Shown here one piece after another: positions 1,019 through 10,714 of a stretch of DNA of 64,000 bases. Source of the stretch: Acidobacteriota bacterium. GTDB lineage: Bacteria > Acidobacteriota > Vicinamibacteria > Vicinamibacterales > CAVVIG01. The DNA is taken from positions 62,001 through 126,000 of the forward strand of contig QHWB01000044.1 of NCBI GenBank assembly GCA_003222395.1, in the 5' to 3' direction. Positions within the stretch are counted from its first letter, which is position 1. Each line of letters begins with the position of its first letter. The position numbers and the translations under genes are program-made. The notes below the pieces were generated by a model. It saw only the letters and a program-made list of their open reading frames with translations, made no database searches and was not told where the DNA came from.

Positions 1019-2389
1019 TCAGCGCGTCCGCGAGAGCTCGTCGTACAGCATCGCTGACGCGATGATGCCGTTGTGAAAGTTGCCGACGTCGAGCTTTTCG
1101 TTCGGCGCGTGCGCGTTCTCGTCTGGGAGACCGACGCCGAACAGCACCGAGGGCAGTCCGAGCTCCTCCTGGAACGTCGACACCACCGGAATCGAACCGC
1201 CTTCGCGCGTGAACACCGGCTTCTGACCGAATCCCTTCTCGATGGCGCGTCCGGCGGCCTGGATGAACGGGTTGTCGTACGATGCCATCCACGGTTTGCC
1301 GCCGTGCATGCGCGTCACCTTCACTTCGACCGTCTTCGGCGCGACCTCGCGCACGTATTCTTCGAACAGCTTCGCGATCTTGTCGGGATCCTGATTCGGC
1401 ACGAGGCGCATGCTGACCTTCGCCATCGCAACCGCCGGCAGCACCGTCTTCGCCCCTTCGCCGGTGAACCCGGAGAGCAGGCCGTTGATCTCGAACGTCG
1501 GGCGGGCCCACGTGCGCTCCAGCGTCGTGTAGCCCGATTCGCCGAACACCTTCGGGATGCCGAAGTCCTTCTTGTACTTCCGCTCGTTGAACGGCAGCGA
1601 CGCCCAGGCCTTCCGCTCTTCGTCCTGCAGCGGCACCACATCGTCGTAGAAGCCCGGAATCCTGATGCGGCCTCCGCGGTCCTTCATCTGCGCGAGCATC
1701 TGCGAGAGCACCATCGCGGGGTTCGCCACGGCGCCGCCGAACGATCCCGAGTGGAGGTCGGTGCTGCTGCCGCGAAGATCGATCTGGAAGTACACGAGAC
1801 CGCGCAGGCCGTAGCACATCGACGGAACGCCGCGCGCGAACATCGGCGAGTCGGAAATGACCACCACGTCCGCGCCGAGCTCGCCCCTGTGGGCGCGGAC
1901 GAAGTCGTCGAGGTGCGCGCTGCCGACTTCCTCCTCGCCCTCGAGGATGAACTTGATGTTGACCGGCAGCCGGCCGGTCTGCTTCATGTACGCTTCGACG
2001 GCCTTGAAGTGCATGAAGACCTGCCCCTTGTCGTCGGCGGAGCCGCGCGCGTAGATCTCGCCGTCGCGGATCGTCGCGTCGAACGGCGGCGATTCCCACA
2101 AGTCGATCGGATCGACCGGCTGCACGTCGTAATGGCCGTAGAAGAGGATCGTCGGCGCGCCCGCCGCGCCCAGCCAGTCGCCGTAGACGACCGGATTGCC
2201 GGGAGTGTCGATCAACCTGACGTTCTGCAGGCCGATGCGGCGCATCTCGTCGGCGCACCATTCGGCGCAGCGCTTCACGTCGGCGGCATGCTCGGGGAGC
2301 GCGCTGATGCTGGGAATCGCGAGCAGCGCCTTCAGCTCGTCGAGGTAGCGGTCGCGGTTGACGTTGATGAAATCGATCACCTTGTCCAT
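1019..2389 (-). CDS. M20 family metallo-dipeptidase
   Basis: 456 residues, full length for the M20 dipeptidase/carnosinase-like group. Zinc ligands and catalytic acids are visible: H86 and D88 in FYGHYDVQP, D119 in GSADDKG, the E152/E153 pair in EGEEEVGS, and an Asp in VISDSPM. The dimerisation (lid) domain spans roughly residues 200-330, and a late His occurs in VGNFHNG. It should hydrolyse dipeptides or other N-acyl amino acids in the cytoplasm; no signal peptide is visible. It lies 4 bp downstream of the MBL hydrolase gene and is probably co-transcribed with it. The exact substrate cannot be read from the sequence. Confidence 0.9.
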   Translation of the reverse strand: MDKVIDFINVNRDRYLDELKALLAIPSISALPEHAADVKRCAEWCADEMRRIGLQNVRLIDTPGNPVVYGDWLGAAGAPTILFYGHYDVQPVDPIDLWESPPFDATIRDGEIYARGSADDKGQVFMHFKAVEAYMKQTGRLPVNIKFILEGEEEVGSAHLDDFVRAHRGELGADVVVISDSPMFARGVPSMCYGLRGLVYFQIDLRGSSTDLHSGSFGGAVANPAMVLSQMLAQMKDRGGRIRIPGFYDDVVPLQDEERKAWASLPFNERKYKKDFGIPKVFGESGYTTLERTWARPTFEINGLLSGFTGEGAKTVLPAVAMAKVSMRLVPNQDPDKIAKLFEEYVREVAPKTVEVKVTRMHGGKPWMASYDNPFIQAAGRAIEKGFGQKPVFTREGGSIPVVSTFQEELGLPSVLFGVGLPDENAHAPNEKLDVGNFHNGIIASAMLYDELSRTR

Positions 2390-8627: not shown

Positions 8628-8731
8628 ATTGACTAGAAATTCGGCCGATTCGATCGTCGACCGCCCTCAGCGGGACGGTTGTACAACGTGTGTGTCACCT
8701 GAGTGGCCGCGCACGGCGGCCGTCAGACGCC

Positions 8732-8941
8732 TCAGGTGCCGCCGAATCCGATCGTCACGGCGCCGCCCTCGTCGACGATCACCGGAACAGAGCGGCGCCC
8801 CTTGCTGTAACCGAGCATCCGCTGCAGCTCCGCCGCATTTTTCTTGACGTCGATGTACTCGAACGCCACGCGCCGCCGCTCATGGTCCTCCCGGGCGGCC
8901 TGCGTGTACGGTCACGTGTCCTTGCCGAAGATATAGACCAT
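8732..8941 (-). CDS. Uxx-star glutaredoxin-like selenoprotein (in-frame UGA = selenocysteine)
   Basis: A 69-residue reading frame interrupted only by one TGA at codon 10 (8914-8912). Read through as selenocysteine it gives MVYIFGKDT-U-PYTQAARED, then FEYIDVKKN, a GRRSVPVIV segment and a TIGFGGT end: a complete small thioredoxin/glutaredoxin fold, with Sec at the redox-active position and the cis-Pro in SVPVIV. This is the arrangement I know from the 'Uxx-star' glutaredoxin-like (seleno)protein family. A GC-rich hairpin follows the UGA at SECIS distance. The start is set at 8941 because TACAAT lies 6 nt before it (leaderless); an in-frame ATG also exists at 8947. If correct, selA/B/C/D must exist elsewhere in the genome. 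Confidence 0.8.
8867..8906 (-). promoter_or_regulatory. Candidate bacterial SECIS hairpin after the UGA codon
   Basis: On the minus strand, CACGC (8906-8902) pairs with GCGUG (8871-8867); after a 2-nt AG bulge, GCCGCC (8899-8894) pairs with GGCGGC (8877-8872). The 16-nt apical loop (8893-8878) contains GGACC. The stem begins 5 nt after the UGA and the loop lies about 18-33 nt downstream, within the usual window for SelB-binding bacterial SECIS elements. The whole hairpin is inside the coding sequence, as expected in bacteria. Pairing is seen; SelB binding is inferred. Confidence 0.55.
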
Positions 8942-8947
8942 AGACAT

Positions 8948-9103: not shown

Positions 9104-10714
9104 GTGGCCTTCCCCGCGTCGATCGCAGAAACATTCACACCGGAAGAAACGCGCGCGCTCGATCCGTACTTCACGAACACCGATCGCGCGGTGTTCGTGC
9201 TTCGCAATCTTCCGGAGACGGTGAAGGGCGCGCTCTTCGCGCGCTATTCGCGTTCGAACAAATCGGTGCGTCGACTGTTCCTGGACGAGTTCCTCGGTCA
9301 GCTTCAGGCCGATACGCCGCCGCGCACGAGTACCGTCGGCACCGAGCGCGCGGACAGGTTGTATGCGCGCGTACTCAGTGAGTACGGAGACGACTCGGTC
9401 GCGCAGCTCGGCGGCGCGCACATCGCGTGCGAAGGTGTCTCGAACATTCTGACGAAGGTGCTGGAGCGGGGACGCCTGATGGCGTACCTCGAGCAGTCGA
9501 CGCGCTACGTCGCGTATACCGATCGGCCGAACGGCCAGTGGAAGTACCACGTGCCTGCGGAGCTCGAGGGCTCCAGTCTGCGCGTGACGTATGTCCGCAC
9601 GCTCGACGCGGCGTTCGAAGCCTACGCGCGCTGGATCCCCCGGATGGAACAGCATTTCCGCGAGAGATACCCGAAGGCGCCCGATGATTCCGACGCCGTG
9701 TACCGCTCGGTGATTCGCGCGAAAGCGCTGGACACCTTGCGGGGACTGTTACCCGCGGCAACGACATCGAACGTCGGTCTTTTCGGAACGGGACAGGCGT
9801 TCGAAGCGCTGCTGCTTCGGATGTTCGCGCATCCGCTCGAGGAAGTGCGCGCGTGCGCGCAGGAGATGCTGACCGAGCTCCGCCATGTCATCCCCGCGTT
9901 CCTCGCGCGGCTCGATCAACCGAACCGCGGCGGCCGTTGGATCGAGTATCTGGCCGCGACGCGGCAGGCGTTCGCCGCGGCCGCGGACGGGTACGTCACC
10001 GACGCCGAGGCCGAGCCTCGCGGCGAGGTGACGCTGACCGATTTCGATCGGGACGGCGAAACGAAGGTCGTCGCCGCTGCGCTCTACGCCGCGAGCGCGC
10101 TCCCCGACGATCAGCTGCAGCGGATCGCGCGACGGATGTCGGCTGGCGATCGCGCCGCGCTGCTGGCCGCGTACATCGGCGACAGAGCGAATCGCCGTCA
10201 CAAGCCCGGGCGCGCGTTCGAGCGCACCAGCTACCGTTTCGATATCCTGGCCGACTACGGCGCGTTTCGCGACCTGCAGCGTCATCGCCTGCTGACGATC
10301 GAGTGGCAGCCGCTCACCACTCGTCATGGATACGTTGAACCAGTCGCGATCGAAGAGGCCGGAGCGCTGTCGGATTGGCGGCGTGTGATGGACCAGTCGG
10401 CCGAGTTGTTCGAACAACTCGCCGCGGGCGGCCTCGAACCGATCGCGCCGTACGCCGTGGTGATGGCGTACCGCGTGCGCTTTTACATGGAGATGAACGC
10501 GCGCGAGGCGATGCACGTCATCGAGCTTCGGACATCACCGCAGGGTCACCCGTCCTACCGGCGCATCTGTCAGCTGATGCACAACGCGATCGCAGAAGTC
10601 GCGGGTCACCGCGCGATTGCCGCGGCGATGCGCTTCGCCGATCACTCGGAAGTCGAATTGGAACGTTTGCAAGCCGAGCGCGCGATGGAGCAGAAGCGCC
10701 AATCGCGGCATTGA
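9104..10714 (+). CDS. Tandem ThyX-like protein (FAD-dependent thymidylate synthase family)
   Basis: 536 residues from the GTG at 9104, about twice a normal ThyX. The first half contains YGDDSVAQLGGAHIACEG and RGRLMAYLEQSTRY (about 123-135), aligning with the ThyX signature RHRxxSxNxxSxRY; the second half contains RDLQRHRLLTIEW followed by TTRHGY (about 384-405). Each half keeps only part of the signature, so the protein may be a divergent flavoprotein rather than a working thymidylate synthase. The open frame extends upstream to 8690, but that part runs through repeats and the antisense of the selenoprotein gene. TACAAT 9 nt before the GTG supports this start. Confidence 0.8.
   Translation: MAFPASIAETFTPEETRALDPYFTNTDRAVFVLRNLPETVKGALFARYSRSNKSVRRLFLDEFLGQLQADTPPRTSTVGTERADRLYARVLSEYGDDSVAQLGGAHIACEGVSNILTKVLERGRLMAYLEQSTRYVAYTDRPNGQWKYHVPAELEGSSLRVTYVRTLDAAFEAYARWIPRMEQHFRERYPKAPDDSDAVYRSVIRAKALDTLRGLLPAATTSNVGLFGTGQAFEALLLRMFAHPLEEVRACAQEMLTELRHVIPAFLARLDQPNRGGRWIEYLAATRQAFAAAADGYVTDAEAEPRGEVTLTDFDRDGETKVVAAALYAASALPDDQLQRIARRMSAGDRAALLAAYIGDRANRRHKPGRAFERTSYRFDILADYGAFRDLQRHRLLTIEWQPLTTRHGYVEPVAIEEAGALSDWRRVMDQSAELFEQLAAGGLEPIAPYAVVMAYRVRFYMEMNAREAMHVIELRTSPQGHPSYRRICQLMHNAIAEVAGHRAIAAAMRFADHSEVELERLQAERAMEQKRQSRH

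Follow-up and report, generated by a model that had tools for sequence, protein, structure and literature searches.

A UXX-star family 1 selenoprotein gene with two predicted selenocysteine codons in a soil acidobacterium

A 64,000-nucleotide stretch of acidobacterial DNA, analysed here as a whole and referred to as the window, carries on its minus strand (8947–8723) a gene for a 74-residue glutaredoxin-like protein that reads MSMVYIFGKDT-U-PYT…GFGGT-U-GV and then a stop when TGA is translated as U. Judged from the sequence, the two UGAs are almost certainly both read as selenocysteine (Sec) by SelA, SelB, SelD and tRNA-Sec, and the host appears as a soil acidobacterium with a genuine bacterial selenoprotein gene. 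Since UXX-star family 1 and both of its Sec residues have already been described, the gene is a further sequence of a family known beforehand. The original prediction of a selenoprotein gene at this place is supported yet incomplete: it missed the second, C-terminal Sec, and as an observation it is borne out in part, with the end of the gene wrong. The features of the locus are:

8723..8947, minus strand: UXX-star family 1 selenoprotein gene, 74 aa, two predicted Sec (translation; NF041114; AlphaFold glutaredoxin fold)
8912..8914, minus strand: first predicted Sec codon (UGA), N-terminal UPYT redox motif (TGA in 47 and a Cys codon in 10 of 57 readable copies)
8864..8911, minus strand: first putative bacterial SECIS region, a GCCGCC...GGCGGC hairpin with GCC CGG GAG (fold; GCC-CGK-GA motif)
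8732..8734, minus strand: second predicted Sec codon (UGA), C-terminal U-G-V-stop, earlier taken as the stop (TGA in 58/58 copies)
8695..8731, minus strand: second putative bacterial SECIS, a GGCCGC-CGUGC-GCGGCC hairpin that extends past the stop into the 3′ UTR (fold; 52/57 copies)
8642..8663, minus strand: terminator-like stem 3′ of the gene (consensus scan only)
9104..10714, plus strand: duplicated ThyX-like (Thy1-domain) flavoprotein homologue, the divergent neighbour (Pfam Thy1, two stretches)

Two in-frame ATG codons, at 8947 (MSMVYIF) and at 8941, lie two codons apart and are both candidate starts. From the latter the minus strand reads MVYIFGKDT-U-PYTQAAREDHERRRVAFEYIDVKKNAAELQRMLGYSKGRRSVPVIVDEGGAVTIGFGGT, and the first TGA (8914-8912) is codon 10 when counted from this Met, exactly as had been predicted, or codon 12 from 8947. 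The segments GKDT-U-PYT, SVPVIV and GFGGT, by which the protein had been recognized, are all present in the minus-strand translation. The frame drawn at 8732-8941 likewise exists at those coordinates, on the minus strand (none had been named), with its end misplaced: the TGA at 8734-8732, thought to close a complete 69-residue protein, is in all probability the second Sec codon rather than a stop, and past it the frame reads GGC GTC TGA, the stop TGA being 8725-8723. The plus-strand reading of 8732-8941 was rejected as an unrelated frame. The terminator-like stem at 8642..8663 suggests a single-gene transcript.

With both UGAs read through, the protein matches NF041114 (NCBIfam, UXX-star selenoprotein family 1) over profile positions 1-70/70 at 115.3 bits, far over the curated cut-off of 72 bits, which bears out the Uxx-star assignment first made from the letters of the sequence. 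The shorter frame ending at 8734-8732 scores 110.8 bits and reaches profile position 68; its match, at E 2.6e-32, rules out the chance frame that the original prediction had held to be an implausible explanation, and the two residues after the second UGA fall within the profile. The N-terminal redox motif of the family, UxxT (or CxxT), appears as U-P-Y-T with its U at codon 12 from 8947, and the C-terminal Sec, followed by two residues and a stop, appears as TGA GGC GTC TGA at 8734-8723; the family name is read here as Sec-X-X-stop (U-X-X-stop). The NCBI annotation pipeline has a model dedicated to UXX-star family 1, and NF041114 is entered in a review as 'distant Grx-like protein 1', with UxxT and two Sec (PMC13188914).

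Relatives were sought in 193 genomes of the same class, 67 of which had a match, 58 above the cut-off; those that are named are MAGs of Acidobacteria, several of them from subdivision gp6. Among the fetched loci, the window included, the C-terminus is readable in 58 distinct copies and the first site in 57. The search that yielded the 58 required U at the second site, a filter that every family-1 copy with a complete end passed; it removed L079, which is cut by a contig end, and L082-L085, four remote relatives with Cys that score under the cut-off. In one genome (G033, locus L064), two contigs carry UXX-star copies that differ from each other, and one closely resembles L051 (G003) from another family; this might be contamination or else a second copy.

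The second site is TGA in 58/58 distinct class copies; after it come two codons, never more or fewer, and a stop, which is TGA in 36 of them, TAG in 15 and TAA in 7. A real stop would vary freely and impose no constraint on the codons after it; the reverse is seen, with TGA invariant and the following codons held (GV in 45/58 copies) while the type of the later stop varies, and this argues for Sec at the second UGA. That only the first UGA encodes Sec, with 8734-8732 as the true stop, would be in keeping with TGA being legal as a stop and with the frame up to GFGGT forming a complete glutaredoxin domain. It is nonetheless most improbable in the face of an invariant TGA beside a stop that is free two codons on, of the conserved GV and of an NF041114 profile that spans both extra residues; moreover, distant Cys relatives have Cys at this very place (L082 ends ...GRSCLV-stop), and the family entry counts two Sec (PMC13188914).

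At the first site the codon is TGA in 47 of the 57 readable copies and TGC or TGT in 10, so that Cys at this position, expected in some relatives, is seen within the class itself. Thus, the N-terminal Sec is replaceable by Cys, whereas the C-terminal Sec is never replaced in the class family-1 copies; because it never varies while its N-terminal counterpart can be Cys, the C-terminal Sec would be the indispensable one of the two. Other stops or frameshifts in close relatives, which the original prediction had named as evidence against itself, were looked for, and one broken gene (L081) was seen among about 60 class relatives. This copy (G062, region 1390-1720, minus strand) is truncated and frame-disrupted at the first site: its N-terminal half is disrupted and its C-terminal Sec end retained. 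A pseudogene, or a sequencing error, in which a Cys codon has been turned into TGA would find its parallel in such a copy. As an account of the window gene it is barely credible, since both in-frame TGA sites are kept throughout numerous genera and families (47 and 58 copies), the gene has no further stop or frameshift, the protein sequence stays conserved downstream of either TGA (mean column identity 69%) and the Sec machinery is encoded in the same genome.

The claim that this organism makes selenocysteine came with a check for selA, selB, selC and selD, which has now been run, and all four are found in the source genome (7.74 Mb, 99% complete): a tRNA-Sec with anticodon UCA (TCA in the DNA) at 62.5 bits with the covariance model, SelB at 313.8 bits, SelA at 542 bits and SelD at 344 bits. 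SelD (L020:1435-2436) itself has one in-frame UGA in its active-site loop (MVACAG-U-ASKLAAG). Sec use is well supported because all these components are present and one of them has its own in-frame UGA; together, gene and machinery confirm selenocysteine use in an acidobacterial genome, now with a corrected gene end. More widely, SelA is found in 55/59 class genomes with the family (Fisher p 2e-4 versus other genomes), and the remaining 4/59 have SelB over its cut-off. The SelB of the genome with the broken UXX-star copy (G062) likewise seems to be divided between two frames of a single contig. That UGA might stand for another residue, through an altered genetic code or tRNA suppression, has nothing found in its favour and virtually no likelihood: the UCA-anticodon tRNA is tRNA-Sec by covariance model, the genome encodes SelA, SelB and SelD, relatives carry Cys in place of the first UGA, and SECIS-like elements come after both UGAs.

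A hairpin after the UGA had been proposed to be a bacterial SECIS, and this holds at the level of the family, while the hairpins of the window taken by themselves do not rise above shuffled sequence. Folding of the RNA after the second UGA, UGAGGCGUCUGACGGCCGCCGUGCGCGGCC, gives a hairpin of -11.2 kcal/mol whose 6-bp stem carries the loop CGUGC, 16 nt downstream of the UGA. It thus falls within the published limits for bacterial SECIS elements (loop 16-37 nt from the UGA, G in the first two loop bases, stem of at least 4 pairs), and it spans the stop codon. Hairpins that satisfy these rules at -5 kcal/mol or better are found in 52/57 copies versus 30% of dinucleotide shuffles, with a mean of -10.8 kcal/mol in the copies versus -3.3 in the shuffles; their stems vary in sequence with the pairing kept, the register being that of the best hairpin in each copy. 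After the first UGA, codons 6-8 are GCC-CG(T/G)-GA in 47/47 Sec copies and 0/10 Cys copies (Fisher p 2e-11, uncorrected for relatedness), and the Arg of this motif is encoded by CGT in 41/47 cases against 23/213 for the other Arg codons of the same genes, again uncorrected for relatedness. This choice of codons, for which the protein offers no reason, is consistent with an RNA element that only a UGA codon requires. RNAalifold returned no common structure for this first element across all the Sec members, and a 15-member subgroup shares the GCCGCC/GGCGGC stem; in the window sequence, a strict scan for contiguous-stem hairpins after the first UGA found none, and a longer, bulged hairpin folds there. 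Thus, what would mark the first SECIS is a synonymous motif and not a fold common to all relatives. Neither hairpin of the window, judged on this one sequence, exceeds its dinucleotide shuffles in stability (z -0.61 and -0.95), a consequence of the high GC content, and an Rfam scan of the whole window gave nothing at gathering score.

The neighbour of the selenoprotein gene, arranged head to head with it, encodes a 536-residue ThyX-like protein that lies below the cut-off of the TIGR02170 thyX equivalog and was called degenerate. Close homologues occur in 83/193 class genomes, and in those with both genes the two are on one contig within 4 kb in 28/28 cases, 27 of them within 1.4 kb. Three relative arrangements are seen in the 28: divergent, downstream on the same strand and upstream on the same strand. 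Shared ancestry accounts for part of this linkage. Its survival through changes of orientation suggests a functional tie between the ThyX-like gene and the selenoprotein; this tie is not obligatory, as many genomes hold one gene without the other. The same locus with its ThyX-like gene also appears in a record titled Woeseiaceae, a gammaproteobacterial name (L055/L089), which is filed in the class and is probably a misnamed MAG. In the combination of an invariant C-terminal Sec with a tight ThyX-like linkage there is a testable lead on the role of an uncharacterised family.

AlphaFold models the protein with confidence (pLDDT 92) as a glutaredoxin fold that has two helices and lacks a third. 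Among solved structures, those closest to it in fold are a thioredoxin-like protein and glutaredoxins, E. coli Grx3 in complex with glutathione and C. oremlandii cGrx1 among them. Glutathione-dependent dithiol glutaredoxins are marked by CPxC and by a C-terminal helix at the glutathione site; the protein does not fit this class, as it has UPYT and its model has no third helix. Glutaredoxins hold glutathione near the region following the GG turn, and the chain encoded in the window stops shortly after this turn, with Sec third from its end. The protein may be taken as a small soluble glutaredoxin-fold oxidoreductase in which U12 of UPYT, a motif without a second Cys, would provide the selenol that attacks the substrate, and U72 of GGT-U-GV, near the glutathione site of classical glutaredoxins and with helix 3 missing, would act as the resolving selenol. 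The intermediate would then be resolved as an internal diselenide or selenylsulfide, and a cellular thiol or the thioredoxin system would re-reduce the protein. Such a U12-U72 mechanism seems about evenly poised between being right and being wrong. That the C-terminal Sec stands in for glutathione, so that the protein would be a diselenide redoxin complete in itself, working with or for the adjacent duplicated ThyX-like flavoprotein in an organism that lacks glutathione synthetase, is a distinctly more speculative and rather doubtful extension. Glutathione synthetase was sought in the source genome and not found; absence of glutathione is nevertheless not established, because a GCS2-family glutamate-cysteine ligase is present, and the argument from a lack of glutathione was dropped on this account.

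In comparison with known systems, nothing sets the window protein apart from UXX-star family 1, with which it shares the full-length match over the cut-off, UPYT, a Sec two residues before the stop and the total of two Sec. UXX-star families 2 and 3 (NF041211, NF047338) and the HUGP/GUXX-star fusion (NF045501) belong to the same Uxx-star subfamily (NF041212) and are detectably similar, but the protein scores far below all three cut-offs and is not a member of any. It shares with classical glutaredoxins such as E. coli Grx3 and cGrx1 the fold, the position of the active-site CPYx/UPxC and the VP cis-proline loop, whereas it is without their second active-site Cys and C-terminal helix and ends in Sec-Gly-Val. 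A parallel might also be drawn with mammalian thioredoxin reductase, in which a C-terminal Sec stands in GCUG-stop; the two proteins are unrelated, and the likeness lies in a Sec close to the C-terminus with a SECIS beyond the coding part. The Clostridium oremlandii cGrx1 is naturally a selenoprotein, with MsrA as its proposed reduction target (PMC7642778), and for production of the thioredoxin reductase in E. coli a SECIS, itself untranslated, was engineered after such a C-terminal Sec (PMC3834832). That element is engineered and not natural, and the second SECIS of the present gene, lying mostly beyond the stop, may be seen as its natural counterpart.
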